Part shown: one piece after another, positions 183 to 22,153 of the stretch
Numbering within the stretch: the first letter of the stretch is position 1
Layout: every line of letters begins with the position of its first letter
Source: a virus
Reading direction: 5' to 3' (one strand)
DNA length: 22,153 nucleotides
IMG/VR virus record: IMGVR_UViG_3300033064_000349
Coordinates: 1-22,153 of that record
Position numbers and translations under genes: made by a program
Notes under the pieces: generated by a model
Databases searched by the model: none
Seen by the model: the letters and a program-made list of their open reading frames with translations, nothing else
What the model was told of the DNA's origin: nothing

Positions 183-803
183 ATGGCATCATTCACTGGA
201 CTAATTTATCTAACAGTTAACTTGATAAATCAAAAAATTTATGTAGGACAAAGTACTATTGATAAGTTATCATATGTAGGAAGTGGTTCTGCTATTAGAA
301 AAGCTATTAAAAAATATGGCAAAAGTAATTTTAATAGGGTTATATTAAGAAACAATATAACTTGTTTAGAAGAGTTAAACTTTTGGGAAAGTTATTATAT
401 TAAATTACTAAAATCCAATAATCCTAAAATAGGTTATAATATAACATTAGGAGGAGATAATGGTGGTTGGAAACATACAGAAGAATCAATTGATAAAATT
501 AAAAATAGAAGTAATCAATTAGATAATAAAAAACGTATAAGAGAAATTCAAAAATTAGCTGCAAAAAGTTTAATAGGTAAACATAGAACAAAAAAAGATA
601 AACTTAAAATGATTTCTACGAGATTTGGTTCAATAAGAGAAATAAAAATATCTACTATGTCTGGAGAGATTTTACACACGTGTAATTTTTCTTCAGAAGC
701 GGCAGAATTTACAAATGTTAGTAGATCATCAGTTAGTAATAATTTATGCGGATTATCAAAATCTGCTGGAGGATTTATTTTTAAATATAAACAATTAAGC
801 TAA
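183..803 (+). CDS. GIY-YIG homing endonuclease with NUMOD-type DNA-binding tail
   Basis: This is a 206-aa site-specific DNA endonuclease of the I-TevI/Seg type, a selfish element that spreads by cutting alleles lacking it. The GIY-YIG core is visible as LIY (residues 7-9) and YVG (20-22), followed by YVGSGSAIRKAIKKYG, the likely catalytic Glu in FWESYY (E69) and GYNITLGG (84-91). Residues about 96-110 (WKHTEESIDKIKN) look like NUMOD3, and about 152-203 like a NUMOD1/helix-turn-helix module (SSEAAEFTNVSRSSVS). The endonuclease fold starts only at residue 6; the leader MASFT matches the MASYT start of the next gene. The TAA stop shares its last base with the next ATG (TAATG), implying translational coupling. 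Base composition is even more AT-rich than the neighbours, as expected for a mobile gene. No intron core is evident around it, so it is probably free-standing. Confidence 0.93.
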   Translation: MASFTGLIYLTVNLINQKIYVGQSTIDKLSYVGSGSAIRKAIKKYGKSNFNRVILRNNITCLEELNFWESYYIKLLKSNNPKIGYNITLGGDNGGWKHTEESIDKIKNRSNQLDNKKRIREIQKLAAKSLIGKHRTKKDKLKMISTRFGSIREIKISTMSGEILHTCNFSSEAAEFTNVSRSSVSNNLCGLSKSAGGFIFKYKQLS

Positions 804-6300: not shown

Positions 6301-9300
6301 GGATATGTTGTTAGATATAACACATTCATTAATAAAGTTCGGACATTACCTAATAGAGCTAATTTAAGATCTGTATTAGTTACAGCTAAAGATTTATCTG
6401 CTTATGGGCTAGATGGATTACTTCAGATTAACTATGAGAAATCTACTGGTCATAAATTCACTGCTGAAGAAATGAAACAATTCACAAGTGATGATCTTGG
6501 ATTTGTTGCTTCTGTATTTGTAGAACAAGAAGGTGATAAAGTATATTATGTAGATGCTAACGGAAATAGAATTGGCAACATTAAAGATGGTGTAGATGTT
6601 TCTAAAGTAGTATTTGCTACAATGCCTACAGATGAATTAACTTGGAAAGATAGTAAGACTCCTCGTTACAGAGCTGGTGAATTAGAAGAAGCTAATAGGC
6701 ATTCTAAAGCTTGGTTAAAGTATCGCAAAGAAGAATTATTTGCTAAGCCATTTGATGGAACAAATTCTATTAACTTATTTACATTTGGTATTTCTAGAGG
6801 ATTTACTGTTAACATTCCTGGTAAGGTACAAAAGAATGCTGTAGCAGATGTTCTACAACTTGATGAATCTACTCTTACACAACCAGGACTTGTTCAAATT
6901 TCCACATTAGGAACCATCACTCACACTGATGGACAAGCTTATAAGTTTGCCAAAGGACGTACAGTGGTATCGTTTGGTGATGTTTTAGAGTTCTTACAAA
7001 ATAGTAGGTTTACAGGTAAACAAGCTAAGAGTATTTTTGAAGTATTAAAATCATTTTCTAATACAGTTAAAAGTGATATTGATGCTAAGAGAAAAATTCA
7101 GTTAAAAAATAAGTATACACAATACTTACAGAATGTATTGTTTTGGAAAAAGTCTAGTAGCCCTGCTGCCAATCAAATTTTTTTAGATGAGTCTACAGGT
7201 AAACTTCATATTGGAAAAAACAATTACGATCTTATTGATATTGAAAAATTTGAGAATCAAATTATTAGTGATTTACAACAAGTTTCATTCAGTGCAAACA
7301 ATGATACATTAACTGCAAATCAAAAGTTCTACGAATTATATTTTGAAGCTGGTGAGTTAAAAGAACGTGAGTGGAAAAACTATCAACAGTTCTTATTGGC
7401 ATCTAAAAATCCAGATGGCTCTCAAAGAGATATTCCTCTTACATTAAACATTTCAGTTCCTACACCTTCTGTACCATATGCATTTACACAGAAGTATGCA
7501 TTCTTAGATGTTCCATTATCTCTTCCTGCAGCACCTGCTACACCATTAGTTTCTGAACTTCCTGTACCAGTAGCTCCGCAAGCAATAGGTGCTACTGTAG
7601 CTTCTACACCACTTACATACGAAAGTTCTAATGTAGATATTGTAAAAGCTACACTTACTAACATCGTTGATGGTAGAATAATTAGTGGACAAGTTGATCC
7701 AACAATTGGACTAGCACAAGATCTTGAAACAAGTGAAGGAATTGTTCAATTTATTCTTGAAACAAGCGGTCCTCGATTTATTGATAGTCAAAACTTAACT
7801 AATCTTATTGCAAATAATGATAAGGTGAACGCCATGCGTGATAGATTAGGATTAACTCCTGCTCCTGTAGCAACAGATCCTTTAGATGATGTATTTAATG
7901 ATTATATAACTAAACAAATATCAGGAAAATTACTATATGATAAAGTTAATAGAACTACTGATTTTAATCATTTTGTCAATAGTTTAAAAGCTACTGAGGG
8001 GATTGATTTAAAGATTAATAGAAATAATATTGGTAATTCTATTGAAGACTTTAAAAAGGCTAAAGAAATAATAGCTAAATTACAAGGTGGTCAACAAGCA
8101 ACTCCAGAAGTTTCTATAACACCAGTTATTCAACAACCTACAATAGTTCCTACACAACCTCAAGCTGGTAATACATTAAAAAATAGAAAAAACAGTTTTA
8201 CAGGAAATAGAAAAGTTGGTGAAGCTGATAAGAGAGGTCGCTCAATGACTGCTAAGGACGTAGAGTTCTTCAAAAATTGGGCAGCTAAGTATCTTCCTAA
8301 AATGCAATATGAATACCTAGCTAACATGATTCAGGTAACTGGAGGTGGTGAAGCTTGGGGTAGAATGGTTAATGGTGCTGTACAGATTGTAGAGGGTGGA
8401 TTAATTGGTACAGATTTCCACGAAGCAATGGAGTATGTGTGGAAAGGATTCTTAAGTCCAGAAGAACAACAAGCTTTACTTGATGAGTTCAGATCACAGA
8501 AAGGTACATTTGTAGACAGAGAGTCTGGTCAGACTTATACTTATAATGATCCTGCTGTAACTGACTTAATTGCAAAGGAAAGAATTATGGATAACTTTGC
8601 TGATTACATGGTTGATAAACTTCCAGCAAAGAATATTAAAGAGAAAGTTCTTAAGTTTTTCAAAGCTATTGTAGACTTTGTTAAAAATCTTTTTAACAAT
8701 AATAACTTACAACGTAAATTGTTTAATGATGTAAATAGTGCAAGATTTGCAGAGATGGTATTTCCTGAATCTAGAAAGGACGATATTATTGAATACAGTC
8801 GTGTAGCTAATATTAATTCTCAATTAGCATATGAATATGTTGAAGATATTAAAGCATCTTTCTATCAAGGAATGTATGCAACAAACCAATCATTGTTTGA
8901 TGTATCTGAGAAGAATGCTAATGCTATCTTTGATCAAATTATAAAAGATTACAAAGACAGCGGTATTGTATTAAGTGATGGTCAATTTAAAGATTTAGTT
9001 CAGCTTGCGAAAGAAAGCTTACGTTCTGATAACTTTGATTTTCAAGATGATAATTCATTTACAATTAATACAGAAGGTTCTACAAATAAAAGTTATGCAG
9101 CAGACGCATTTACTGTAGACTTTAAAAAGTCTGCTCCTTATGCTGTTAAAATCTTAACTAGTTCAATAATTAAAACAGTTGGTTACAATGATACAACTGG
9201 TGATATTGACTACGATTATTCTCCAACATTAGGAGGTATGATGTTACTATCATCTAATCAAGTGTACGTTACATTGACTAATAAGTTACAAAACACTCGT

Positions 9301-11334
9301 GATGTTAATGATTTTATTGCCAAGCTTCATGACTTAGCTAAAACTAATTCCGATTACGTTGATTTATTTAGACGTTTAGGTGGTATCATGAAGTCTGGTA
9401 AAGTAGATTTTAATAACATGACTATAGATGGAATGCGTTTATTTTCATCATTCATGCAAACGTTTACTAAACAAGCTCCTGAAATTTTAGTACAATACTT
9501 ACGTGATAACAATAGATATACAGCAGCAGCTAGTCTATCTAAAGTTTCACAAGTTGTAGAAGATCGTTGGGTTGCTAACATGCTTACAATTGCGGGTGTA
9601 AAGAATTCAATCATTACATACGACAAAACAAATAAGCAATACATTATTAATCCAGAAGCACCACTATCAGTACCTCTTACTACAGAAGCACAACTAGGGT
9701 TCTTAAAGTTGTTAGGTGTAGAGTTTGATGAAAGATCGTATAATAGATTATCTGCTGATCAGAAGATAGAGTTTAGTGATGCTGTACAACAAGTTTATGC
9801 AGACGTTACTACAGATAAAGTTCTACAACTTAAAAGAGAAAAAGGCACAGTTAAAAGAAGTATTGGTACTGGATTAATTAAACTTGCAGATTTATTTGCT
9901 GGTGTTAATTCAGTTAATTATAGTAGTGTATTATATAATGCAGAAGGTAAGCAACAACAAGCTTACACAGATGCTAATGCTCCTTCATTGTTTGAATACT
10001 ATTTCAATAGTGCTAAGACATTAGATGAGTTATTAAAAAACATGCCACAGTTACGTGATGTACATTCTAGAGGATCACAAATTCTTAAGAAAGGTGGTAA
10101 GTTCTTTGATGAGAATGGTAAGAGAACCAAGACTAAGCTTTTAGTTAAAACAATCAACGGTGAGATTAATGTTGATACAGATAAAGGAAGTTCTGTTTCT
10201 GATTTTAATATTGGTACTCGTACTATCACTGAGCTTAATCAAAACATAAATGGTGACTATTATGTATTAATTCCTGCTGATGGATCTACAGAGTGGATGA
10301 TGAGTATGGGTAATGTTATTGATTATCAAGATATTACAACAGGTCGTTGGGAAGAACAAGTTAAAAAAATCTTCAAAGGATATTTGATTGATGATATTAA
10401 ATTAGCTAGAGATTCTGCTAATAGAGATAATCTTAATAATATGAAAGGTAAGGAGAAACAATTACGTTTCTTCGAAGGATTCTTCTCACAACCAAATGCT
10501 CGTAATAAAAAAGAAAATGCAGATGCACTAATTGCTATCAATAAGTTAATCAATAAAAAGTCTGTAACTGCTGCAGATATTGAAGCTCTTGTAGATTCTC
10601 TCGGGGATGTAGTTCGTGATGCCATACTTGATTACATTGAAACATCAAGTAAGAAAACCATTGATAATTTAACAAAAACTAAAGACATTGTTGATTTAGG
10701 AGATGGTACATTTATGATGTCTAGTCTTGATAATAACTTTGCTAAAAAGAAAAATGTTAAATTAAACAAAGAAGCTCTTTCTCAAGAAGAGTTAGATAAT
10801 GTAATTAACTACACTACAGTAAATTATGTAATCAATAACATTGAATATTTTAAGATATTGTTTGGCGATCCATTCCAGTTTGCAGTTAACACTAAAAAGA
10901 ATAAAGTGATTCTTGATATTACAAAACGTATCAAATCATTTTTATCTCCACGTAGAATTACAATTAACTTCAATGAGTTAAACAGCTTATACAATAAAGC
11001 TAGAAATGTTGTAGGTGGTATTCAATTAGATTCTACTGATTTTGGATATCATGAGTATAAAGACTATGCAAAAACACTTACAGTAAGTGATGTGTATGTT
11101 GCTAGTAAGTTATATAGTGCTTTGGGTATAGTTGATACAAATGAAGCAGATGGTGCATCATGGTTAAACCCTGGTACATACAGAGAAATTAAAGATAAGA
11201 ATGGTCAATGGTCTAATGAGGCAGACGCATTTCACCAATGGCAAATGGCTTATGCTAGACAGAAACTAGCTGAGAAAGGTGTATATAAAGGATATAAAGA
11301 TAAGCCTGAATTAAAGAAACATGATTCTGAATAA
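3307..11334 (+). CDS. giant virion protein: hydrophobic N-terminus, zincin-like domain, N-terminal part of RNA polymerase
   Basis: This 2675-aa protein starts at ATG 3307, 8 nt after the previous stop in an A-rich context typical of Bacteroidota starts. Residues about 99-132 and 189-227 are Gly/Ala-rich and hydrophobic, and further such patches lie near 350-375 and 463-513, as in phage ejection proteins that contact membranes. Acidic (about 943-977) and Pro-rich linkers (about 1382-1440 and 1594-1623) separate the modules. A zincin-like domain follows (about 1645-1794). The C-terminal 850 or so residues are best read as the first part of a crAss-like RNA polymerase, including the segment DGASWLNPGTYREI near 2617-2630. 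The TAA at 11332 falls inside that polymerase and the frame continues unbroken beyond it. The protein is therefore either a natural subunit, the short product of a readthrough event, or a truncated copy. Expression is near certain; the polymerase assignment of this half depends on continuity with the next frame. Confidence 0.9.
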   Translation: MPDFDKDLIAPVNLPSEDMREPQVRAYTPAELSSGGPTLAHTPDIFDKLNAATQTSKYGKTGAFVTFAELDANKRYEAYNPTIDNQEDFAAYGQGTIEKAVNGILKGANLAATTVAGGFGMLGGAIASPFTGKLSTIWDNPVMNALDDWNNYVDQELLPNYYTDIEKNAKWYSTDNWVTTNFVFDKFIKNAGFAVGAMYSGNIANALLKGAGSVLGTSAMIAADAAEASQAFKLFTPLLRNTARAFSAAKNLEIAAMMERQIRNIAELSAVESEIANIARTTNKFAKIGDVARRTPIAAYSSAGEASFEALQTSKEYRNRLIEDYKNTNGGLEPTGDDLEAIEQSTRDVGAASFLGNLAVLGVTEYFQLNKLLGSTYSAEKQAANSVMGQINETVVRDGVRVAASETLTKFGKLYDKVGNISKYIGDPKEGLQEGLQYALQVGSQNYYAKAFRGNDADLLVDGVLHGLYGKNKEGEGVGVFNSKEGGESMLLGTLTGGGMQALGTYKMDKALAANTARFLDEIKVAPTYHDAFIDRMNSINRDTQLEQEHSDAVRSGDKLEAKDLKADKMHNYLATRIKYGRFDLVMEDIADMRRLSSTEQGLANLKEEGITNINDDIQSFQKRLNNLEQVAKNTDEIYRSLDLRYSGIMTEDGKRKYSNQTIDKLAYASSKIYNYDQRIPQVNQSLTEAGINTFDILNSIIEEGVPNKKATEEALDSINKLKVINDTKKELKTNLSHVIEMSLRRNSFIEEYNKISNDPLEYELPEFTDITDPLARVRQAVSDEERALGKRATNKDLEIGKEYSLAEPVRREGNTINLAPKIKILSKTLGGEYEVQLPNGATKFMKPIDFKDYNIIESSNESEEFSDILSKAINTVLRKPQYQDLKVPEGRDPIEWINSLDNKALVDDIEKVFATRASAFVKEMAKSQYKREQLLNNKGDVQEGQDELENGSGEFSTGTEPDESIDPGKKRKPTSILFTSITLPSAGSLKTTEDKLPGYVVRYNTFINKVRTLPNRANLRSVLVTAKDLSAYGLDGLLQINYEKSTGHKFTAEEMKQFTSDDLGFVASVFVEQEGDKVYYVDANGNRIGNIKDGVDVSKVVFATMPTDELTWKDSKTPRYRAGELEEANRHSKAWLKYRKEELFAKPFDGTNSINLFTFGISRGFTVNIPGKVQKNAVADVLQLDESTLTQPGLVQISTLGTITHTDGQAYKFAKGRTVVSFGDVLEFLQNSRFTGKQAKSIFEVLKSFSNTVKSDIDAKRKIQLKNKYTQYLQNVLFWKKSSSPAANQIFLDESTGKLHIGKNNYDLIDIEKFENQIISDLQQVSFSANNDTLTANQKFYELYFEAGELKEREWKNYQQFLLASKNPDGSQRDIPLTLNISVPTPSVPYAFTQKYAFLDVPLSLPAAPATPLVSELPVPVAPQAIGATVASTPLTYESSNVDIVKATLTNIVDGRIISGQVDPTIGLAQDLETSEGIVQFILETSGPRFIDSQNLTNLIANNDKVNAMRDRLGLTPAPVATDPLDDVFNDYITKQISGKLLYDKVNRTTDFNHFVNSLKATEGIDLKINRNNIGNSIEDFKKAKEIIAKLQGGQQATPEVSITPVIQQPTIVPTQPQAGNTLKNRKNSFTGNRKVGEADKRGRSMTAKDVEFFKNWAAKYLPKMQYEYLANMIQVTGGGEAWGRMVNGAVQIVEGGLIGTDFHEAMEYVWKGFLSPEEQQALLDEFRSQKGTFVDRESGQTYTYNDPAVTDLIAKERIMDNFADYMVDKLPAKNIKEKVLKFFKAIVDFVKNLFNNNNLQRKLFNDVNSARFAEMVFPESRKDDIIEYSRVANINSQLAYEYVEDIKASFYQGMYATNQSLFDVSEKNANAIFDQIIKDYKDSGIVLSDGQFKDLVQLAKESLRSDNFDFQDDNSFTINTEGSTNKSYAADAFTVDFKKSAPYAVKILTSSIIKTVGYNDTTGDIDYDYSPTLGGMMLLSSNQVYVTLTNKLQNTRDVNDFIAKLHDLAKTNSDYVDLFRRLGGIMKSGKVDFNNMTIDGMRLFSSFMQTFTKQAPEILVQYLRDNNRYTAAASLSKVSQVVEDRWVANMLTIAGVKNSIITYDKTNKQYIINPEAPLSVPLTTEAQLGFLKLLGVEFDERSYNRLSADQKIEFSDAVQQVYADVTTDKVLQLKREKGTVKRSIGTGLIKLADLFAGVNSVNYSSVLYNAEGKQQQAYTDANAPSLFEYYFNSAKTLDELLKNMPQLRDVHSRGSQILKKGGKFFDENGKRTKTKLLVKTINGEINVDTDKGSSVSDFNIGTRTITELNQNINGDYYVLIPADGSTEWMMSMGNVIDYQDITTGRWEEQVKKIFKGYLIDDIKLARDSANRDNLNNMKGKEKQLRFFEGFFSQPNARNKKENADALIAINKLINKKSVTAADIEALVDSLGDVVRDAILDYIETSSKKTIDNLTKTKDIVDLGDGTFMMSSLDNNFAKKKNVKLNKEALSQEELDNVINYTTVNYVINNIEYFKILFGDPFQFAVNTKKNKVILDITKRIKSFLSPRRITINFNELNSLYNKARNVVGGIQLDSTDFGYHEYKDYAKTLTVSDVYVASKLYSALGIVDTNEADGASWLNPGTYREIKDKNGQWSNEADAFHQWQMAYARQKLAEKGVYKGYKDKPELKKHDSE
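8239..8697 (+). other. zincin-like metalloprotease domain with altered HExxH (HEAME)
   Basis: Within the giant protein, residues 1705-1709 read HEAME inside GLIGTDFHEAMEYVW, followed by a helical segment with KERIMDNFADYM (E1758), the layout of a gluzincin: HExxH helix, then a downstream Glu ligand. Zincin domains are known next to the polymerase of crAss-like phages and may process virion proteins. Here the second His of HExxH is Glu, so zinc binding or catalysis may be weakened or lost. Alternatively this is a zincin-derived scaffold. Confidence 0.6.
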
Positions 11335-14300
11335 ATAGCTACACCTCGTCCTGATTATGTAATTGATGTATTAAAGCCTGTTGTAACTGGTAACAAATAC
11401 AATAAGAAATACATTGACTTAGTCTTAGATAAGTATTCTCAACTTCCTCTATACTATGAAGCTATTGAAGGTACTGCTTTAGAAGATCTTTACATTAAAA
11501 TGTTTAATGGAGGTTATGACTATGTTGTTGTAAAGTCAGGTAGAAAGGTTGGTGCTGAAGCGTTACATCCTCTTTACAAACCTAATGGTGAGTTTAATGA
11601 TGAAGCATTTAAAAATACAGTTAACATACCTTGGTCTGCATATGGTATCCAAGTAGAGAATTCATATAATAAACCTAAAGGTCAAAGATTAGGATCTCAA
11701 CCAACTAAGATTGTTACAAGTGATATGTACTCTAATGGTGTTGCTGTTTCACCAGAAGCAGAAGCAGCTGTTAAAGAACACACAGAAGCACTTGAGGCAT
11801 TATATGAAAATGGTTTTGATACTTTATTAAATGATTTAGGAATTATAGATGCTGGAGATGAATTCATCATTGAAGACAAATCTATTCTTGCTACTACATT
11901 ACGTAATGAAATGTTAAAGCAAGAAATGTCTGAAAATGCTTTAGCTAGTATTACAATTAATCCTATTACAAAAGAGTTTGAGATTCCTTTTGAGGCATCT
12001 ACAAACTACATACAGATCAAGCGTATTATTTATTCTATGGTAGAGAAGCGTATTTACTCTCCTACAATGAATGGTAACTCTGCAGTACAGGTTCCTGTAA
12101 CAATGTGGGAAGCTTCTGGTAAAGGCAGATCATTAGTACAAAAGATAGGAAAGAATACATACAAGCCTATTACAAAAGAAGCATACGAAAAGTTATCTGA
12201 TGAAGATAAAGCTGATGTTGTGTATACAGATGATACACTTAAGTTTTATGAAGATGCAGAAGGTTTACGTCATTCTGAAATATTAATTCCTTTCCCTACT
12301 CACTTACAAGGATTGTTTGATAATAAGTTTCCTAAAATGGGTGAGAAGGAGAAGATGGCTGAAATTCTTAAATACCTAAATAAGAATGCAGAACAATCAT
12401 TATTTGGTATTGGTTTTCGTATTCCTACAGATGCATTGCATTCAATGGAACGTTTTAAGATTGCTGGATTCCTTCCATCATTCATGGGTAACACTGTAGT
12501 TGTTCCTTCTGCAATTACAACTAAATCAGGTTCTGACTTTGATATTGATAAGCTGAACATGTATTTAAGATCAATGTATCTTGATTCAGATGGTGAGATT
12601 AAAATATTTGAATTAAAAGGTTCTGAAGAAGAAACAAAAGAATACTATGGTCAAGTGTTTGATAGATTGATTCAAAATAAACAAGACAATATAATTGAAC
12701 AGCTATTAAGAGATAGTGAGGTTATTGATAATGAGCGTGAGCAAACGCTTAATGATAAACTTACTAAGCTTGATGAAGAAAAAGCTACACGTGAAAAGTT
12801 TGAAAGAAAAGCTTATAGACGTGCTTTAGAGAATAGATACTACAATGCTATAGATAATATATTATCTATGGAAGATAACTTCCAGCGTTTGATTTCTGTT
12901 ACTACTACTGATGACTTGATTGAGATTTCTGAGGAAATGGATGAGTTGAGAAATGATAATGAGTATGATATTATCAATCGTGTATTGGATAGAAACTATA
13001 TGACAGGTCAAAGACAAGCTTTCGTAATGGGTAAAGCTTGGGTGGGTATTGTTGCACAGCACATCACTGGTCATTCAAATGGTCAGAAGGCTGGATTATA
13101 TGTAAATGATGAGAAGTTTACAATGTCTCTTCCTCACAATACTTTGGGTAAATATGTATCTGTATCTGGTCTATATGATTCTGATGGAAACTATATCTCA
13201 GCAAACTTATCACAATACATGAATGCTATTGTTGATATTGCAAAAGATCCATACATCATGAAACTTATCTATAGTGGACAAGTTGTAGATATTGTAATGT
13301 TCTTAGCAAGAGCTGGTGTTAGTCCAAGAAACGCAGCGTTGTTCTTGAGTCAACCAATTATTAGATCATTTGTAGAAGGTGCTGATAATAACAACAAGAA
13401 AATTAGTTCTTTATTTTCTAATAGCGAAGTTGTATCACAACAGTATGATTCATTCGGTACTTCATATGTTGCTAAACAAGCAGCAGGTGATAAGTTTGAT
13501 ATGTCTCAATTAACTGATGCTATTAAAGATTACACGGCAGATCAGACAAGCTTAACAGATAAACAAAATGCTCAACAGCAATTAATCTTTAAAGAGTTTA
13601 TACAGATTGCAAGGGCTACTAATGGTCTTACTGAAATTACTCAGTCTACAAACTTTGATACAACAAGTTTTAGAAGTGCAGAACAATTAAGTAGAAAACA
13701 ATTAAAAGTTGAACAACAAGGATTAGATCCTGATGTTATTCCTATATCTTCATCTGTAGCTGTATTAGAAAATACACACATTGGTAAGCTAGAGGAATTT
13801 TTAGATCTTTCTAACATTGCACTAGGTACTATTTTTAAATTTAACACTATTGAATTTAGAGAGTTTATTGATAGTATGATTAATAAGTTTGGTATTAATA
13901 AATATTTATCTAAAGATAAATACAATAAGATTAGTGAGCAGTTATCTGCATCGTTATTAGACTATATTATTCAGTCTAACACAAACATGTTTGTTAAAGA
14001 GTTAACCTCTGGTCCAAACTCTATAGCTGTTAAACTTGAGAAAGCTAGAGCTGCTAATCCTAATCTACAGATTCTACAAGATTTACAGATTGTTCCAGGA
14101 AAAAGCAAGAACGCTCCTTCTACAGTTAAGTTATCTGTTAGTAAACTTGATGCTGCTGAAGAAAATATGTATGCTAACATGATGCGTGGATTACGTGATG
14201 AAGCATCTACACGTGATCTATATAACGATCTAGTTAAACTTTCTATTGTACAAGGAACATATCGTACAGCTGCTTCTATTAAGAATATCATTCCTATCGA

Positions 14301-14890
14301 AGACTATGCACGTATGGTTACAGACTCAGTTAAGAATGCTAATGTTGATGATTCTGTAAAAAGATTCAAACAGTATGCATTCTTCCAAAGAAATAACTTC
14401 AGAGATGTAAACATCACTCCACAAGTTACTCTTAAGGGTATAGATCTAGAGAAAGAATCTACTATTGATGAGTTTACAGGTGATATTATTAATAAGTATT
14501 CTTTTCCATCAATCATTAATGAGAAGCTTGGTAGAACAGTTTTACGCATTAATAAACAATTTACAAAAGTTGCTGGTGCTGAATTAATTGTAATTCCTGC
14601 CGTACTTGATATTGCTGGAGACAAAGTTAATTTTCAAACAGGAAAATCAATCACCCCTTCTGACTTTGCAAGAGCTGCTACACAAGACGATAATCCTTAC
14701 AAGTATATGTATGGTTATCAGTTAGTTAAAAACACTCTTACAGGGCAACCATTAATGATTCAAACTAATCCTAGATATGCTCCTGATTATGTTTACAAGA
14801 TTGTAAATTTATATGGTGATGGTAGATTCACTACAGAGTATCCAGGCTTTCCAGTTAAATCTGAATTAGAGAATGGTACAATTAAAGTGA
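8998..14890 (+). other. crAss-like virion RNA polymerase core (approximate extent)
   Basis: The metal-binding catalytic loop DFDID is at 12535-12549 (residues 346-350 of the second part), inside the context FRIPTDALHSMERFKIAGF and then TTKSGSDFDIDKLNMY. This is the signature of the single-chain, double-psi beta-barrel polymerases of crAss-like phages, distantly related to eukaryotic RNA-dependent RNAPs and to YonO. The three Asp residues would bind the catalytic magnesium. The module before the stop (near 11141-11182, DGASWLNPGTYREI) and GGYDYVVVKSGRKVGA just after it fit the usual order of conserved blocks ahead of DFDID. In the related phage such a polymerase enters the cell with the DNA and transcribes early genes. 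The outer limits given are estimates. Confidence 0.82.
11332..11334 (+). other. in-frame TAA inside the RNA polymerase core
   Basis: The codons read CAT GAT TCT GAA TAA ATA GCT ACA. Both other frames also carry stops close by (TAG at 11336-11338; TGA at 11319-11321 and 11328-11330), so a simple frameshift cannot bypass it. One base change from CAA, GAA or AAA would create it. I see no strong stem or pseudoknot just downstream that would explain programmed readthrough. Confidence 0.85.
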
Positions 14891-17800
14891 CGCAAGAGTA
14901 TACAGATGATGAGGTGTTAGCTTTATTGAAAGGTCAAGAGATTAGACAATCTGTTGCAGAAACTCCAGTAGTTGAAGCACCTACAGCTATTGATACAACT
15001 CCTGAGGTTGAACCTACAGTATCATCAATCCAGCAAAACTTTGCAGATGGGCAAGGTGGTCGTAAGATGCAACCTCAATTTGCAGGTAAGTCTACTATGG
15101 ATCTAATCTTATCTGGTGATCGCACTCGTACAACTCGTGCTCAAACAGATATCAATAGAATGATTAATGATTATGGGCTTACTAAGATTGAAGATCTAGT
15201 AGGTAAAATAATCCCTATGACTGATAAGTCTGGTAGAGTAGCTCAAACTAGAATAATAAAAGTTGCTCCATTTACTAAAGAATATCAGGATGCTACATGG
15301 CAGAAAGAAGGTTGGGAGAAGTCAGTAACTGATAAACTAGTAGGTCAATATCCGTATGGTATTGAGTTTGAATTAGTTGAACCTGGACAAATTTCTACAA
15401 CTAGTGTTGAACCAAAAGGACAGAAGGTTAAAGAAGGTATATATGTAAATCAACAAGCTCTTACAAAAGATGAGCAAATAGAATTATTTAATTACTTAAA
15501 ACCATATCTTGAATCACAAGCTTCTAAAACTAATAAAGGAACGAATGCTAGTAAGATGATTGGTTTAGGTTTGAGATGGGATTATAAAGTAAATAATCCT
15601 GGCAAAGAAGCTAAGAATATACCAGATGTTATAAATCCAGCAAACAAAAATAAATATGGATATTATGACACTTCTATTAATGATCAACCTTTAGCACCTA
15701 TTAGTGATCGATTTAAAGAACTGATGGAAAAAGCTACAGGTGTAGATATGACTAATTATGATGGAGCTATTATCAATCTTTATGAATCTAATAGTTTCAT
15801 TAGTTCTCATAATGATGTTGATGAAAGTAGATCCGCTATTGGTTATCCTGTTATAGGAGTTAACCTTGGTGGAACAGGAAACTTTGCAATTGAGTCAAGA
15901 GATGGTGATCCTAAAAATCTACTTCTTAAGGATGGTACAGGATATGTATTTGGTGTAGATGGTGTTAATAGAGAAGTGTTCCATAGAACTTTCCCTACAC
16001 CTCAAGATAGTTTCTTACCAGCATTGACTACTCAGTTAGATGGTAAAACTTATGAGCCTGGATCTTATCGAGTTACAATTACGATGAGAAGAGTGATGCC
16101 TTTAGAACCAGGTATGCCTACTAAACCAGTTATCAAAACTACTCAACAAACACCAGCACAACCAGTTACATCTCCTAAAACAATTAATATTTATGCTGGT
16201 ACAGGAGAGAACTCAGAGTTAAGTAACTTTGCTAATAGACCTTTTGAAGATAAAACAGAGTGGAAAGGTTTAACTTTTAAATCTGTTGAAGGCGCATATC
16301 AAGCTGCTAAGATTCAATTATCAGACATGTTTGACAAAGATGATAATCTTACAAAAGAAGGAGATGTCTTATTAGATAAATTACAAGAAGCTAGTGGTGC
16401 AGAAGCAAAAGCTTTAGGTAGAAAAGTTACTGGTTTAAATGTAAGAGAGTGGGATAGAGTATCTTCTAAAGTTATGAAAGGTCTTCTTTTAGAATCATTC
16501 AAACAAAACCCAGATGCACTTGCTAAGCTATTAGCTACAGGTGATGCTGTTCTCACACATACACAAGATAAAGGTAATTGGGGTACAGAGTTTCCAAAAT
16601 TATTAATGGAAGTAAGAAGTGAATTAAGACCTAATGCTACATCAGTTACTGAAAAACCAATAGTTAATACAGTTGAATATGGTGGTAAGAAATTTATTGT
16701 TGAAGGAACACCTGACGGTGGTAACCTAGAAGTGTTCTTTACTAAGATTGATGGAAGTAAAGGTGCAGAATTAACTTCTGATAAACCTCTATATCGTAAG
16801 GTGATAGTTGCTTTTTTTGCACAAAATCGTCCACAAGATGTAGTAGAGTTAACAGAGTTACAAGGATCTCCTAAATACTTAACTACTATGGATGGAAGAA
16901 TTGTATCACTTAATCCTACAAGCTACGGTGATGTAATTACTTCTAGTGATGTTATTAGTAGAGTTCAAGCTAAGTTAAAAGAAAAAGAAAATAACGCACT
17001 TGAATCATTAACCCCAGAAGATATAACTTCTGAAGTAGGAGAAGCTAAATCTATGTTCTCTTATAAAGGTACAACAATTGAGACAGCATTCGATTTGACA
17101 GAAGGACAGACTAATGCTCTTCAAGAGTTAGCTGACTTTGTTCAAGATAATAAAGATAAGTTTATTACATTACAAGGTCCTGCTGGTACAGGTAAAACAT
17201 CTGTAATTGGTTATTTACAAAACTATCTAGGTGGTAAATATAACTTTATTTACATGGCTCCTACACATGCTGCTACAGCAGAATTAGCATTTGCTACAGT
17301 TAAGACAGGAAACAAAACACTCCCAATGACTGTTGCTTCTGGGTTTAGTACAAGATCAATTGGAGGAAGAGTTGTAAAAGCTATGACTAGAAAGTTGTTA
17401 AAGAAGCTTGCTCTTAGAAACAACGTCATTGTAATAGATGAAGTGTCTATGCTTAATTCTGCTACATTAGATATTGTAAAAGGAGCAATAGGTAGTGAAG
17501 ATGTTAAGATTATTTTCATGGGAGATATTTCACAGATTCCTGAAGTTGATCAAAGAAATCCTGCTACAAAACAAGTAAGTAGAGCATTTAATGAATTTAA
17601 CCAAGTTAAGCTTACTGAAGTTAAACGTACTAGTGATAATGATATCTTAGAAGTATTAACTGCTGTTCGTAATAACATTAATAATAAAATACCAAAAGTT
17701 GATAACACTGATGCATTAAGATATTTAAAAGTTACGGACTTCAATCGTCAGCTTGCTGAGTCCGTAGAAAAGAACCCAGAAGAAACTATGTTAATTGCTT

Positions 17801-18780
17801 ATACAAATTCTGCTGTATCTGAATACAACAAAAAGATAAGACAAGAGCTAGGTAGAACTGGAGACTTACAAAAAGATGATGTGATCATGGGTTATCTAGG
17901 ATATTCTAGTAAACAAATTGAAAAAGGTGATATTGCTAATAGTATTCAATACACTATAAAGAATATTCAAAAATATGATAGTGTTTATAGAATTACAGCA
18001 ACTTCTAAAAAGCTAGATAATCTTAGAGAGAAAGGAGTTCAACAAATTTATGAAAATTCCACAACAGGATATTATCAACTTAGTCCTAATGATGTATTTA
18101 CATTTTCTGATATTACATCTGCTGACATGATAACTAATAATAATAAAGTTAGTGAGTTGATGAAAGCAATATATGATGCTAAGACAAAAGCTATTGCTAG
18201 TGGATCTTCAAGAGACTGGGTTAATTTCTATGAAATAGTAGAGTTAGTATCCCAAGCAATGTCAAAAATTGATTTAGGTAGAGATTATATCTACGATCCT
18301 TCAACTAATAAAATGGAAAGATATAGTGCAGATAAATATTTTCAATTTAAAAAAGACTTTGCTGAAGTATATGTTGAGAAAGGAATTGATTTAGGTCATG
18401 CATTAACTATCCATAAGTCACAAGGATCTACCATTAAGAATGTATTCTTTGATGCAAACAGTCTTCCTAAAGGATCATCATCTAAATTATACAATGGTGA
18501 TACATTAATAGGAACAGAGAAACAATCGCTAATCTATGTAGGTATGTCTCGTACATCAAATTTATTAGCTATAAGTGATGATATATCAGAAAATTTTTAT
18601 AACTTGAAAACTTATGATCCTAGTCAAAACTTAAGTGGTCAATCTGTTAACGAACAATCTTATCGCTTAGCTGATAATAAAATATACAAGGCTAGTGAGA
18701 TCACTGTAGAGCTAATGGAGAAGATGGGATATAGTAATGACATTATTGGTCAATTCTTCAAAAAATTAAATGGATGTTAA
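11500..18780 (+). CDS. giant protein: RNA polymerase catalytic part, ASCH, AlkB, NADAR and SF1 helicase domains
   Basis: This is 2426 aa if started at ATG 11500, but the frame is open back to 11335, so the true N-terminus may be earlier or joined to the preceding protein. Domains in order: RNA polymerase with DFDID at 346-350 (to about 1130); a Thr/Pro/Glu-rich linker (about 1150-1178); an ASCH-like domain (about 1178-1297); an AlkB-like Fe(II)/2-oxoglutarate dioxygenase (1308-1534); a Pro/Thr linker; a NADAR/YbiA domain (1563-1711); a small unassigned domain (about 1715-1830); and an SF1 helicase (about 1865-2371). The C-terminal tail has no known fold. The ATG at 11500 follows ATTAAA, acceptable for Bacteroidota, but it would begin in the middle of a conserved-looking polymerase segment. 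It ends TAA 16 nt before the next gene. The domain set suggests transcription coupled to template unwinding and repair of modified bases. Confidence 0.9.
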   Translation: MFNGGYDYVVVKSGRKVGAEALHPLYKPNGEFNDEAFKNTVNIPWSAYGIQVENSYNKPKGQRLGSQPTKIVTSDMYSNGVAVSPEAEAAVKEHTEALEALYENGFDTLLNDLGIIDAGDEFIIEDKSILATTLRNEMLKQEMSENALASITINPITKEFEIPFEASTNYIQIKRIIYSMVEKRIYSPTMNGNSAVQVPVTMWEASGKGRSLVQKIGKNTYKPITKEAYEKLSDEDKADVVYTDDTLKFYEDAEGLRHSEILIPFPTHLQGLFDNKFPKMGEKEKMAEILKYLNKNAEQSLFGIGFRIPTDALHSMERFKIAGFLPSFMGNTVVVPSAITTKSGSDFDIDKLNMYLRSMYLDSDGEIKIFELKGSEEETKEYYGQVFDRLIQNKQDNIIEQLLRDSEVIDNEREQTLNDKLTKLDEEKATREKFERKAYRRALENRYYNAIDNILSMEDNFQRLISVTTTDDLIEISEEMDELRNDNEYDIINRVLDRNYMTGQRQAFVMGKAWVGIVAQHITGHSNGQKAGLYVNDEKFTMSLPHNTLGKYVSVSGLYDSDGNYISANLSQYMNAIVDIAKDPYIMKLIYSGQVVDIVMFLARAGVSPRNAALFLSQPIIRSFVEGADNNNKKISSLFSNSEVVSQQYDSFGTSYVAKQAAGDKFDMSQLTDAIKDYTADQTSLTDKQNAQQQLIFKEFIQIARATNGLTEITQSTNFDTTSFRSAEQLSRKQLKVEQQGLDPDVIPISSSVAVLENTHIGKLEEFLDLSNIALGTIFKFNTIEFREFIDSMINKFGINKYLSKDKYNKISEQLSASLLDYIIQSNTNMFVKELTSGPNSIAVKLEKARAANPNLQILQDLQIVPGKSKNAPSTVKLSVSKLDAAEENMYANMMRGLRDEASTRDLYNDLVKLSIVQGTYRTAASIKNIIPIEDYARMVTDSVKNANVDDSVKRFKQYAFFQRNNFRDVNITPQVTLKGIDLEKESTIDEFTGDIINKYSFPSIINEKLGRTVLRINKQFTKVAGAELIVIPAVLDIAGDKVNFQTGKSITPSDFARAATQDDNPYKYMYGYQLVKNTLTGQPLMIQTNPRYAPDYVYKIVNLYGDGRFTTEYPGFPVKSELENGTIKVTQEYTDDEVLALLKGQEIRQSVAETPVVEAPTAIDTTPEVEPTVSSIQQNFADGQGGRKMQPQFAGKSTMDLILSGDRTRTTRAQTDINRMINDYGLTKIEDLVGKIIPMTDKSGRVAQTRIIKVAPFTKEYQDATWQKEGWEKSVTDKLVGQYPYGIEFELVEPGQISTTSVEPKGQKVKEGIYVNQQALTKDEQIELFNYLKPYLESQASKTNKGTNASKMIGLGLRWDYKVNNPGKEAKNIPDVINPANKNKYGYYDTSINDQPLAPISDRFKELMEKATGVDMTNYDGAIINLYESNSFISSHNDVDESRSAIGYPVIGVNLGGTGNFAIESRDGDPKNLLLKDGTGYVFGVDGVNREVFHRTFPTPQDSFLPALTTQLDGKTYEPGSYRVTITMRRVMPLEPGMPTKPVIKTTQQTPAQPVTSPKTINIYAGTGENSELSNFANRPFEDKTEWKGLTFKSVEGAYQAAKIQLSDMFDKDDNLTKEGDVLLDKLQEASGAEAKALGRKVTGLNVREWDRVSSKVMKGLLLESFKQNPDALAKLLATGDAVLTHTQDKGNWGTEFPKLLMEVRSELRPNATSVTEKPIVNTVEYGGKKFIVEGTPDGGNLEVFFTKIDGSKGAELTSDKPLYRKVIVAFFAQNRPQDVVELTELQGSPKYLTTMDGRIVSLNPTSYGDVITSSDVISRVQAKLKEKENNALESLTPEDITSEVGEAKSMFSYKGTTIETAFDLTEGQTNALQELADFVQDNKDKFITLQGPAGTGKTSVIGYLQNYLGGKYNFIYMAPTHAATAELAFATVKTGNKTLPMTVASGFSTRSIGGRVVKAMTRKLLKKLALRNNVIVIDEVSMLNSATLDIVKGAIGSEDVKIIFMGDISQIPEVDQRNPATKQVSRAFNEFNQVKLTEVKRTSDNDILEVLTAVRNNINNKIPKVDNTDALRYLKVTDFNRQLAESVEKNPEETMLIAYTNSAVSEYNKKIRQELGRTGDLQKDDVIMGYLGYSSKQIEKGDIANSIQYTIKNIQKYDSVYRITATSKKLDNLREKGVQQIYENSTTGYYQLSPNDVFTFSDITSADMITNNNKVSELMKAIYDAKTKAIASGSSRDWVNFYEIVELVSQAMSKIDLGRDYIYDPSTNKMERYSADKYFQFKKDFAEVYVEKGIDLGHALTIHKSQGSTIKNVFFDANSLPKGSSSKLYNGDTLIGTEKQSLIYVGMSRTSNLLAISDDISENFYNLKTYDPSQNLSGQSVNEQSYRLADNKIYKASEITVELMEKMGYSNDIIGQFFKKLNGC
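15031..15390 (+). other. ASCH-like (PUA-fold) domain
   Basis: Residues about 1178-1297 contain QPQFAGKSTMDLILSGDRTR, followed by TTRAQ, VGKIIPMTDKSG and RIIKVAPFT. This matches the ASCH pattern of an L-I-L-S-G-x-K/R-T-x-T-x-R helix and a beta-barrel that binds RNA or modified nucleosides. The role here is inferred to be nucleic-acid or modified-base recognition. It follows a flexible linker, so it is a separate module from the polymerase. Confidence 0.6.
15421..16101 (+). other. AlkB-like Fe(II)/2-oxoglutarate dioxygenase domain
   Basis: Residues 1308-1534 carry the iron-binding triad H1437-x-D1439 (SSHNDVDES) and H1495 (REVFHRTFP), with a 2-oxoglutarate-binding Arg in YRVTITMRR (R1524; R1530 and R1531 also candidates). 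YDGAIINLYESNSFISSHND matches the AlkB segment leading to HxD. AlkB enzymes oxidatively remove alkyl groups from bases in DNA or RNA. All expected catalytic residues are present, so the domain is probably active. Confidence 0.82.
16186..16632 (+). other. NADAR (YbiA/DUF1768-like) domain
   Basis: Residues 1563-1711 have the NADAR order of motifs: NIYAGTGENSELSNF at the start, GLTFKSVEGAYQAAK, WDRVSSKVMKGLLLESF, LLATGDAVLTHTQ and then GNWGTEFPKLLMEVR. NADAR enzymes hydrolyse N-glycosidic bonds. Some act on riboflavin-pathway intermediates, and others remove ADP-ribose from guanine in DNA, countering DarT1-type toxins. Its length is normal for a stand-alone NADAR domain and the key motifs look intact. 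Confidence 0.85.
17092..18612 (+). other. SF1 (Dda/RecD/Pif1-like) helicase domain
   Basis: The motifs are complete: Q-motif-like LTEGQTNAL (about 1865), Walker A GPAGTGKT (1893-1900, K1899), Walker B VIDEVS (D1980, E1981), motif III MGDISQIPE (D2009), motif IV-like MLIAYTNSAVSEYN, motif V HALTIHKSQGST (2300-2311) and motif VI YVGMSRT (R2351). An insertion of roughly 200 residues lies between motifs IV and V. The set fits a 5'-3' SF1B helicase such as Dda or RecD2. Fusion to the polymerase-containing protein suggests DNA unwinding during early transcription or genome entry. Confidence 0.9.
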
Positions 18781-18796: not shown

Positions 18797-21700
18797 ATGT
18801 CAACTTGCCCTAACAAATCATTATCGGAATGGAAAGAACTTGTAGCAAGCAGAGGTGAATCCGCTGCTTATTACTTGTGGTATAAGAATGATGGTAATAT
18901 TTCAGACCTTATAAAACCAAAAGGAGTATCAGAGTCTAGTAAGGTTTCTGTAATTAATGATTTTTTAAATCGTATAGGGGTTGATATTGAATCAGTTGAT
19001 ACGATTGTTGTAGATGGCGTTAAGCAAGATGCCACAGGTGTTGCGTTGATTGCACAGAAACTTATTCAGATTGTTAATGGTAAAGAAGATGTAACTCTTC
19101 CAGAAGAAGCTATGCACTTTGCTGTAGAGATTATTAAACAAAAGAATCCTGCATTATATAAAAAACTATTGGGTGAAATCAATAGCTATGAAATTTATAA
19201 TCAAGTAGTTAAACAATACGGCACTCGTCCAGATTATCAAACTCCTGATGGTAAGCCTGATATTTTAAAATTAAAAGAAGAGGCTATAGCTAAGGTATTA
19301 GCTTCTACTTTAAATAACAAGATTGATAATACAGAACAATTTACAGAGAATCCTGTACAGTCTATGTCTATGTGGCAGAGGATTAAAGATTTCTTAAGAG
19401 ATTTATTTTCTACATCTGGATTTGATCAAGCTGCGATGAGTATAATCAATGGTGACTTCCAAGGAACAGTTGAAGACATACGAGCTAATTTTCCTTCTGT
19501 ATTCTATCAGTTAGATGTGAAGAATGCTGTAGACGAAGCTTATGATAAAGTTGTTGCAGTTGATAAGGATATGGAAGTAATTAAAGATTCACCTGATTAC
19601 AATCCTGAAACAGGACAAGGAAAGAAACGTCATTATTTATACAAAGGTGAAGAAGTTGCTACATCTGTAACATCATTGATTTCTGATGGAGATAGGTTTA
19701 AAGGAAGAAGTGCTGAAGATAAAAAACAAGATACTGACAAAATGCTTTGGGGATCAGAGGGTCATAACTTTATAGAGTATTATGCTAAGACTAATCTACT
19801 TGATGAGAACGGATATATTCTTGATGAGTTTAAAGATGATCCCATCACTACACAACTTAATCCAAATGTTCAGCAAGTTCTTAAAAAATATATAAGAGAT
19901 TTAATATTAGGATATAAAATTGCTGATGCTCAGCGTACAGATGGTGCTAAGACTCGGATATTAGTTGAAGTTATGGTAGTTAATACCAAGAAAAAAGGAA
20001 TGGTAGCATCTACAATTGACTTTATGGCACTTATTCCAGACGATGTTGTTGGTGTTAAAGTAGATACATTAGACTGGAAATTTACAAATATTGATAAATC
20101 CAAAGATCAAGACATTCCATGGTACAAAAGAGGTAAATGGAATGATCAAATGAAGGAGTATGTTATAATGTACTTAACTGATTTGTATGGATTTAATAGT
20201 AAACAAATGGGTAAATCAAGAATGATCCCGTTCACCGCAAATTATATATATGTAAATCCACAAGATAAAAAAAATAGTCGTCTATACTTAGGATCTGTTG
20301 AAGCAGGTGATGCAGATAGTGCAAGAGAACAAAATATATATTTACTTGCTGTACCTACAGAATCTGAATCTACAGGTAATGTAAAGATTGATGAATTATT
20401 AACTGCATTACGTATTCAATATAATAAGTTATATCAATCATCACCAATTGGAGATAAGCAAATAGCTGAGAAGAGTATTCAGTTGAATCAATTAGCTATA
20501 GCTATTCGTTCCTTACATGTTAGATTAGATTTTTCTCCACTAGCTATGTCTGGCGCAAACTACATTAGTGATGTATCAAATGTATTAAAGAACTTTGAAG
20601 GTATTGATTATGAAAATTTAACTTCTGAAGAGATCAATTCAAAACTAGAAGAGCTTATTGGATATGAGAATGCTATTGGTAAGTACACTAGACTAGATGA
20701 TATATTCCTTTCTAAGTTTGATGAAAACGAATTAGATGCTGAAGCACAAGCAGAATTAAATAAACTAAGAGGATTAACTAGAGAAACATATGACGTGTTG
20801 AAAAAAATCAAACGTCTATATGATGACTACACAGTTTACTTAGCTCTTAAGATGGAGGTTGTTGCGGAAGATGAGAAAGAAGATGTACTACAAGCAGAGC
20901 TTGAGATTCCTGGATTAGTTAAATCTTTCTTAGAAGCATCTAAACTTGGTTCTGTAATTATTCGCTTAGCTTCTAATTTAATCATGCGAGCTAGAAGTTT
21001 ATCTAGAATTAAAGCAAATCGTGTAATCAATGAATTTACTAAACTATTAAACTCTGTAGAAGAAGAAGCTAAGCGTTCTGGTAAAACTGCATTTGATTTA
21101 ATTGGTAGTGCCGAAGGAGGAAACTTACGATTAGTTAATGAACTATCTGCTGACTTTTGGAAACAATATGATGCGGCTATTACTGATAAAGATAAAAAGT
21201 TTCTATTAGATAACTTAGATAGAGATAAATACAATGAGTTAGCTAAAGCTTATTTAAAAACTAATATTGAATCTATTATTAGTAAGAAGCATAATGATAA
21301 TCCTAATATAGATGATTTAATTAAACAGTCTAAGATTTCTACATTAAGAAGAAGTGTAGATATTGAGAATGATGAATTTAATGGGTTTAATGATTATCAC
21401 TTTAAAAAGTTTTATTTACAAACAGTAAACCGTGATAAGTGGTATTCATCAGATTATACTAAATTACAACAAAGTCCTAATGCATTAAAACTTTGGGAGT
21501 TTATGCGTAGTCTTAATCAAAAAGCTAAGGATATGGGATATCTTTCTAAGAAAGAAAAACTATCATTCTTTCCATTAATTGAAGCATCTTTTATTACAAA
21601 AGCTGCTCAGTCAGGTGATATTGTAAAAGAGGGAATGGACTTCTTTAAGAGTATGTATCAATTACATTCTGAAGAAGAACAGAAGTATTCTAAATTAGAT

Positions 21701-22153
21701 CCTGAAACAAACAAACTAAAAAGACAAATTCCTATATTCTTTACTAATAAGAATAAAGAAGTAACAAAACTATCTAAGGATTTGAATAAGGTGGGTATTA
21801 TGTGGATTAAATCTTTGATGGAATACGAAACATCTAAAGACTTAGAAACAACATTACACATCTTACATAAAGTTGAAGAGGGTAAAGGTTTACTTATTAC
21901 AGATGAAAACAATAGACTTGTAAGAGATTCTGCAGGCGTACCAAAGGTTGATATTAATAATAAAAAGAATGCTGATATATTAAAAACAATGATAGATGAT
22001 CACATCTATGGTTTACAAGAGAATGAAAACTCTTGGGGTAATATTCAGATTGCAAAAATTGCTACAAAGGTTGCAGGAAGTGATGAGGAGAAACAACAAA
22101 CTTTAAAACTTAATACAAAGAAGATTGTAAATACAATGAATAGTTATATTCAA
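18797..22153 (+). CDS. giant protein with degenerate zincin motif and RecB-type PD-(D/E)XK nuclease (3' end beyond window)
   Basis: The frame is open from ATG 18797 to the window end (1119 codons seen, no stop), so this is an incomplete gene. The start follows the previous stop by 16 nt. Residues about 97-190 contain LPEEAMHFAVE (EEAMH at 103-107) and then KLKEEAIAKVLA, a zincin-like layout lacking the first His of HExxH. Residues about 315-460 are a RecB/Cas4-type nuclease: H323 (SEGHNFIEYY), E391 (LVEVMVV), D408 (STIDFMAL), D426-W-K428 (DTLDWKF) and Q451/Y455 (QMKEY), the complete H-E-D-DxK-QxxxY pattern. The rest (about 550-1119) looks mainly alpha-helical and charged, with no recognised domain. 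Context makes it another likely virion or early protein of the polymerase block. The nuclease could degrade or process host or phage DNA; the substrate is unknown. Confidence 0.88.
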   Translation, partial: MSTCPNKSLSEWKELVASRGESAAYYLWYKNDGNISDLIKPKGVSESSKVSVINDFLNRIGVDIESVDTIVVDGVKQDATGVALIAQKLIQIVNGKEDVTLPEEAMHFAVEIIKQKNPALYKKLLGEINSYEIYNQVVKQYGTRPDYQTPDGKPDILKLKEEAIAKVLASTLNNKIDNTEQFTENPVQSMSMWQRIKDFLRDLFSTSGFDQAAMSIINGDFQGTVEDIRANFPSVFYQLDVKNAVDEAYDKVVAVDKDMEVIKDSPDYNPETGQGKKRHYLYKGEEVATSVTSLISDGDRFKGRSAEDKKQDTDKMLWGSEGHNFIEYYAKTNLLDENGYILDEFKDDPITTQLNPNVQQVLKKYIRDLILGYKIADAQRTDGAKTRILVEVMVVNTKKKGMVASTIDFMALIPDDVVGVKVDTLDWKFTNIDKSKDQDIPWYKRGKWNDQMKEYVIMYLTDLYGFNSKQMGKSRMIPFTANYIYVNPQDKKNSRLYLGSVEAGDADSAREQNIYLLAVPTESESTGNVKIDELLTALRIQYNKLYQSSPIGDKQIAEKSIQLNQLAIAIRSLHVRLDFSPLAMSGANYISDVSNVLKNFEGIDYENLTSEEINSKLEELIGYENAIGKYTRLDDIFLSKFDENELDAEAQAELNKLRGLTRETYDVLKKIKRLYDDYTVYLALKMEVVAEDEKEDVLQAELEIPGLVKSFLEASKLGSVIIRLASNLIMRARSLSRIKANRVINEFTKLLNSVEEEAKRSGKTAFDLIGSAEGGNLRLVNELSADFWKQYDAAITDKDKKFLLDNLDRDKYNELAKAYLKTNIESIISKKHNDNPNIDDLIKQSKISTLRRSVDIENDEFNGFNDYHFKKFYLQTVNRDKWYSSDYTKLQQSPNALKLWEFMRSLNQKAKDMGYLSKKEKLSFFPLIEASFITKAAQSGDIVKEGMDFFKSMYQLHSEEEQKYSKLDPETNKLKRQIPIFFTNKNKEVTKLSKDLNKVGIMWIKSLMEYETSKDLETTLHILHKVEEGKGLLITDENNRLVRDSAGVPKVDINNKKNADILKTMIDDHIYGLQENENSWGNIQIAKIATKVAGSDEEKQQTLKLNTKKIVNTMNSYIQ

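Follow-up and report, generated by a model that had tools for sequence, protein, structure and literature searches.

A PD-(D/E)XK nuclease domain in the large transcription-associated proteins of crAss-like phages has already been published by Yutin et al. 2021 (PMC7886860), who also place other PD-(D/E)XK nucleases, with roles not known, in the structural and replication blocks of these phages; the accessible part of that paper states neither the active site of the domain nor the protein that carries it. According to the same source, which cites work on phi14:2, the vRNAP accompanies the DNA into the cell and there transcribes the early genes. In crAss001, gp45, gp46, gp47, gp49 and gp50 were detected in virions by mass spectrometry, and ejection of these virion cargo proteins into the cell has been proposed (Bayfield et al. 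2023, PMC10172136); the main text of that paper contains no word beginning with 'nuclease'. The accessible part of a 2023 review calls the function of the domain unclear, and among the open-access titles and abstract openings listed none claims a test of a link between the nuclease and the virion.

Here we analyse a stretch of 22,153 nt (the window), a single-contig virus record (IMGVR_UViG_3300033064_000349, positions 1-22,153), which shares its phage group, gene block and nuclease superfamily with the crAss proteins of Yutin et al. 2021 (PMC7886860). This 22 kb fragment of a crAss-like phage covers the transcription/cargo block. Its architecture is known from earlier work on this phage order, and it is a divergent new member, not a new kind of system; what is new is a divergent family with a predicted complete active site on a gp49-type carrier, the tie of this nuclease to the vRNAP and the occurrence of one domain on both gp47-type and gp49-type cargo.

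Results

The gene block of the window

All genes in the window lie on the plus strand. A GIY-YIG homing-endonuclease-like protein (183-803) adjoins the cargo block and is followed by an 831-aa protein (803-3298), a giant gp47-type protein of 2675 aa (3307-11334; crAss001 gp47, E 4e-25 in a set of 46 proteins), a giant vRNAP protein of 2426 aa (11500-18780) and the giant gp49-type terminal protein of the block, which has an ATG start and runs past the window end (18797-22153). With gp47-, gp50- and gp49-type proteins all encoded together, the window belongs to the crAss RNAP/cargo block. Residues 103-204 of the 2675-aa protein share 49.5% identity with PhiCrAssBcn phages, and the 2426-aa protein matches RNA polymerase proteins of crAss-like phages (crAss001 gp50, tblastn E 3e-14) and carries at residue 346 a DFDID motif (12535-12549), which has the DxDxD form of giant vRNAPs. 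C-terminal to the vRNAP, residues 1313-2358 of the same protein (15436-18573) hold an AlkB-like 2OG-Fe(II) oxygenase, a NADAR and a Dda/RecD-like SF1 helicase; NADARs reverse guanine ADP-ribosylation (PMC11125620). These additions look lineage-specific, because AlkB was detected in 0, NADAR in 5 and helicase in 2 of the 52 kin loci described below. A lone in-frame TAA (11332-11334) splits the 2675-aa from the 2426-aa protein while the 165 intervening bases stay open, and the counterparts of the two proteins share one open reading frame in 49 of 52 kin loci; the TAA may be a natural split, a site of readthrough or a sequence error.

The terminal protein

The open reading frame from 18797 was seen over 1119 codons with no stop before the window end, and homologous frames, counted from stop to stop, span 1,429-2,234 codons in 56 of 60 cases (the other four 900, 1,163, 1,371 and 4,893; some frames end at contig ends). 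Homologues in IMG/VR are 23-52% identical in the best segment. Residues 1-260 match crAss001 gp49 (E 6.5e-5 in a set of 45 proteins), and these N-terminal 260 residues also match the last RNAP-block protein of other crAss-like phages. A full-length model of middling quality (pLDDT 77.2, pTM 0.64) is mostly helical outside the nuclease and bears out both the helical regions proposed on its two sides and the embedding of the nuclease in a giant, mostly helical protein. The earlier label of 'accessory protein' is better refined: the protein is of gp49 type and belongs to the RNAP/cargo block, and its counterpart in crAss001 has been seen in virions. In the window, the nuclease-bearing chain shows no recognised helicase domain.

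Upstream of the nuclease the terminal protein has an EExxH motif (19103-19117), present in 56 of 61 proteins, and comparison by eye gives HExxH for cr4_1 and cr55_1. Compared in the same way, the 2675-aa protein reads HEAME at residue 1705 (8419-8433), where crAss001 gp47 has HEAFH. Both EExxH and HEAME may be degenerate zincin-like motifs.

Fold of the nuclease domain

AlphaFold2, applied to residues 245-560 with 60 aligned sequences, gave a model (pLDDT 92.5, pTM 0.90) with a predicted alpha-beta-beta-beta-alpha-beta core, its helices and strands following one another as in RecB; the alpha-beta-alpha nuclease core, whose presence in a structure prediction had been set as the test of the nuclease assignment, is thus predicted. 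On the model and its structural matches, a RecB-type PD-(D/E)XK nuclease domain is placed at residues 279-524 (about 19631-20368). The span previously given, 19700-20165 (residues 302-456), does hold the motifs but is too short, as the strands at 279-282, 471-485 and 496-503 belong to the fold.

The best 21 rows of a VIA-align comparison are all AddAB, AdnAB, RecBCD, MGME1 or Cas4 (Z 10.4 to 8.3), headed by AddA at 10.4, MGME1 at 9.3 and RecB at 9.2; since background can reach a VIA-align Z of 7-8, what counts is that the top rows are all of one superfamily. Weaker rows, at Z about 6, are DXO/Rai1 and eIF3d. Foldseek returned no PDB entry at E <= 1e-3 (best 4.8e-3), and against BFVD it ranked Virus NIOZ-UU157 first (E 1.6e-21) and crAss phage cr108_1 next (1.1e-10). 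The first of these entries, A0A7S9SUA1, is 24% identical to the nuclease domain. In cr108_1, gp52 occupies the same gene position as the window protein and shares all seven active-site positions.

RecB, AddA, AdnA and MGME1 resemble the window domain in fold and motif set, but sequence identity is 10-17% and the carrier in the window is a phage cargo protein. Cas4 and AddB nucleases carry an Fe-S cluster bound by four cysteines. The window domain is of the same fold class yet has no cysteine, and at most one occurs in any column of the 60 aligned members, which rules out the Fe-S type of Cas4/AddB.

The divergence of the family is evident in sequence searches. The window sequence alone had no significant Pfam, PHROG or NCBIfam match (the NCBIfam scan gave one irrelevant match), and tblastn against 50,697 phage records gave no significant match for the whole protein (E 1e-5) or for the domain alone (E 10), the window protein being too divergent for a match there. 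Two phmmer searches of PDB sequences gave one chance match at E 1.4 and none, and the sole match of the family profile to PDB sequences was an unrelated tail protein (E 0.039). Among the 60 aligned members, however, 10 matched Pfam PDDEXK_1 at E <= 0.1 (best 3.5e-6) and 16 matched the PHROG exonuclease phrog_298 at E <= 1e-3; a profile search for PD-(D/E)XK families, as the preliminary description proposed, succeeds with these homologues but not with the window sequence itself.

Active site

The seven residues picked out earlier as a full RecB-family pattern (H323, E391, D408, D426, K428, Q451 and Y455) all stand at those positions in the frame from 18797, and all are nearly invariant in 61 non-identical proteins (60 from IMG/VR and the window; 10 of 70 kin loci were removed as identical and near-copies kept). 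The helix-A histidine H323 (19763-19765) is kept in 59 of 60 proteins with a letter, the exception being Tyr, and both E391 on the first core strand (19967-19969) and D408 on the second (STIDF; 20018-20020) are kept in 60 of 60. The DxK motif D426-W427-K428 (20072-20080) occurs in 61 of 61; as DWK formed part of one of the two search patterns, it was partly selected for in most kin, but L074, L086, L089 and L092, the four found by the other pattern alone, have it too. In the QxxxY motif Q451...Y455 (20147-20161), Q is invariant (61 of 61), while residue 455 is Y in 57 proteins and F in 4. The D...(D/E)xK catalytic residues sit on predicted core strands, D408 on 403-415 and D426 and K428 on 419-430. 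We take H323, E391, Q451 and Y455 to correspond to RecB residues, and D426 presumably has its counterpart in RecB D1080. The change D1080A is a nuclease-dead one in RecB (PMC5030088).

Predicted fold, structural matches and conserved motifs agree on the RecB-type identity first proposed, and the domain is, on the model and the alignment, a putative RecB-type PD-(D/E)XK nuclease with a complete, conserved active site. Conservation in 61 proteins together with the confident predicted fold rules out a chance motif.

Kin loci

Single-sequence searches for related loci found no kin with either the whole protein or the domain alone. Kin were reached through the preceding protein, a search with which gave eight loci, and the gene behind it was then read. 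The terminal gene was homologous over its length in four of the eight, L018 (= L019), L020 and L023, with identities to the window of 39% over 1068 aa (L023), 36% over 1054 aa (L020) and 25% over 743 aa (L018). An alignment of these terminal genes then yielded 67 loci. Gene context was counted in the 52 of 60 non-identical kin loci that have at least 8 kb upstream, near-copies being kept. The vRNAP lies upstream of the nuclease gene in 52 of 52, whereas a helicase was detected in 2 of 52 (phmmer with the helicase of the window, E <= 1e-3). The nearest kin locus, L026 (52% best-segment identity, also closest in the domain tree), has both the helicase and AlkB, and its upstream sequence is too short for it to enter the 52. 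In Chitinophaga sp. YR573, the vRNAP motif DFDID and the nuclease motif DWK lie on one open reading frame, of 4987 codons in the stretch read and 5491 in the open frame. Judged by gene order, the nuclease is a neighbour of the vRNAP and not of the helicase, because of the 52/52 against 2/52 loci and the YR573 one-frame fusion, and a special tie to the helicase is not supported.

The crAss-like element of Chitinophaga sp. YR573 (L093/L097) lies at about 3.73-3.75 Mb within a 4.83-Mb bacterial contig. The accessible part of a review describes crAss-like phages as strictly lytic and mentions the YR573 element itself.

The converse of the vRNAP association fails. Among the eight loci found with the vRNAP protein, the terminal gene encodes the nuclease only in L018 (= L019), L020 and L023; in L021 and L025 a different open reading frame, upstream of the vRNAP protein, carries it, and a profile search found none in the scanned block proteins of L022 and L024. 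The nuclease thus appears not to be essential to the phage order, because vRNAP loci exist in which none was found.

The same domain on other cargo proteins

We searched crAss proteins with a mixed profile built from the window family, cr108, cr4, cr55, azo, Kolpuevirus, cr106 and cr116. The terminal protein matched in cr108_1, cr4_1, cr55_1 and cr1_1, the gp47-type protein in Kolpuevirus 'frurule', cr106_1, cr116_1, crAss001 (E 5e-12) and Dulem virus 41 (E 5e-5), and gp16 in Azobacteroides phage ProJPt-Bp1; given the make-up of the profile and the 99.8% identity of cr1 to cr55, the independent finds are crAss001, Dulem, L021 and L025 only. No domain was found with it in crAss001 gp49 or in the scanned block proteins of cr50_1 (two), cr118_1 (two) and cr126_1 (gp2 and gp3). 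It gave no match in cr130_1 either, but the L021 frame matches cr130 gp79 at 1627-1817 across the nuclease region (E 0.001), so that cr130_1 may still carry the domain.

Detection of the crAss001 gp47 copy, at residues 1718-1874 (E 5e-12 among 46 proteins), needed this mixed profile. The family profile with default filters matched 0 of 28 other crAss proteins; with filters off, cr108, Kolpuevirus, cr116, cr106 and cr4 passed the threshold, which cr55, cr1, azo and crAss001 gp47 did not reach. When 423 windows from the 28 crAss proteins were compared by hhalign, the best 18 were all from carriers, crAss001 gp47 reached 60% probability, the top window of a domain-less protein reached 3.9%, and azo was not among the best 30 of the 423. 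PDDEXK_1 was the best Pfam match for all seven scanned segments, five of them above the curated cut-off and two below it, crAss001 (0.0026) and Kolpuevirus (3e-4).

The copies differ in their active sites. In a comparison of 24 rows, the Glu is present in all 16 terminal-protein copies and the His in all except one, which has Tyr, whereas the gp47-type copies keep His in 0 of 5 and Glu in 1 of 5 (cr116). The crAss001 gp47 copy is diverged in this way, with Asn at the E391 position and no aligned His. crAss001 is like the window in its gp49-type N-terminal homology and in a homologous nuclease region in gp47, but it differs in having that region, with a diverged site, on gp47 and none on gp49, where the window has an intact site on a gp49-type protein. 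In the tree of the 24 rows the label 'terminal protein' needs at least two changes, but L021, azo and cr108 are long branches, so that this does not amount to a count of moves. As far as alignments tell, gp47-type and gp49-type cargo proteins both carry the predicted domain. A third kind of carrier is not claimed, as the L025 frame is weakly gp47-like (E 0.003-0.007), azo gp16 is weakly gp49-like (E 0.006) and the L021 frame stays unassigned.

Discussion

We consider it probable, at about 70%, that the nuclease is virion cargo which is injected with the vRNAP and cuts DNA at the start of infection. The gp49-type terminal protein would be packaged as cargo together with the vRNAP, would thread through the tail at infection and refold inside the cell, and its nuclease would cut DNA at the very start of infection, either in end trimming or processing or in an attack on host DNA. 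We infer the packaging of the window protein from the mass spectrometry of its crAss001 homologues, of which gp47 has a diverged copy of the nuclease and gp49 none, neither being the intact-site version; the nuclease activity, its timing and its substrate are putative too. The role early in infection that the preliminary description had suggested is plausible from the linkage to the vRNAP.

A nuclease of this kind might instead work in the cell that makes the virions, where it would process genomes or help to package them by end trimming or branch removal before or during head filling, with its presence in the virion at most a left-over. The block does adjoin virion structural genes in annotated relatives, and crAss-like phages have further PD-(D/E)XK nucleases in their structural and replication blocks (PMC7886860), but the vRNAP linkage in 52 of 52 loci and the one-frame fusion point to an injected complex, as does the detection of homologues in virions (PMC10172136), and we regard this role as unlikely. 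That the Dda/RecD-like helicase and the RecB-type nuclease form a RecBCD- or AddAB-like pair is suggested by their adjacency in the window and again in L026, L068 and L070; it is nonetheless very unlikely, as no constant SF1 helicase partner was found (2 of 52 kin loci, which rules the pair out as the defining unit), and cr118_1 and cr50_1 have the helicase while no nuclease was found in two scanned block proteins of each. Most improbable of all is that the domain is a catalytically dead remnant with a structural or DNA-binding role: all five gp47-type copies compared have lost the His position, and four of the five also the Glu position, yet the window family keeps all catalytic positions, with one His exception, at identities as low as 23%.

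Injection with the vRNAP, the reading we prefer, could be extended. The injected vRNAP complex might be a multi-enzyme first-strike package in which RNA polymerase, AlkB-like dealkylase, NADAR, helicase and RecB-type nuclease act on the entering phage genome, by repair, unblocking or protection, and disarm the DNA of the host ahead of phage gene expression, the nuclease being a module set on different cargo proteins by lineage; this we put forward as a speculation and think improbable as a whole. The occurrence of the domain on both gp47-type and gp49-type cargo suggests that delivery, and not a particular partner, has been selected for. If injection is true, crAss-like phages would begin infection by bringing in a DNA-cutting enzyme that is joined to their RNA polymerase or packed next to it, which would bear on host takeover by very abundant phages and would give the domain a testable role.
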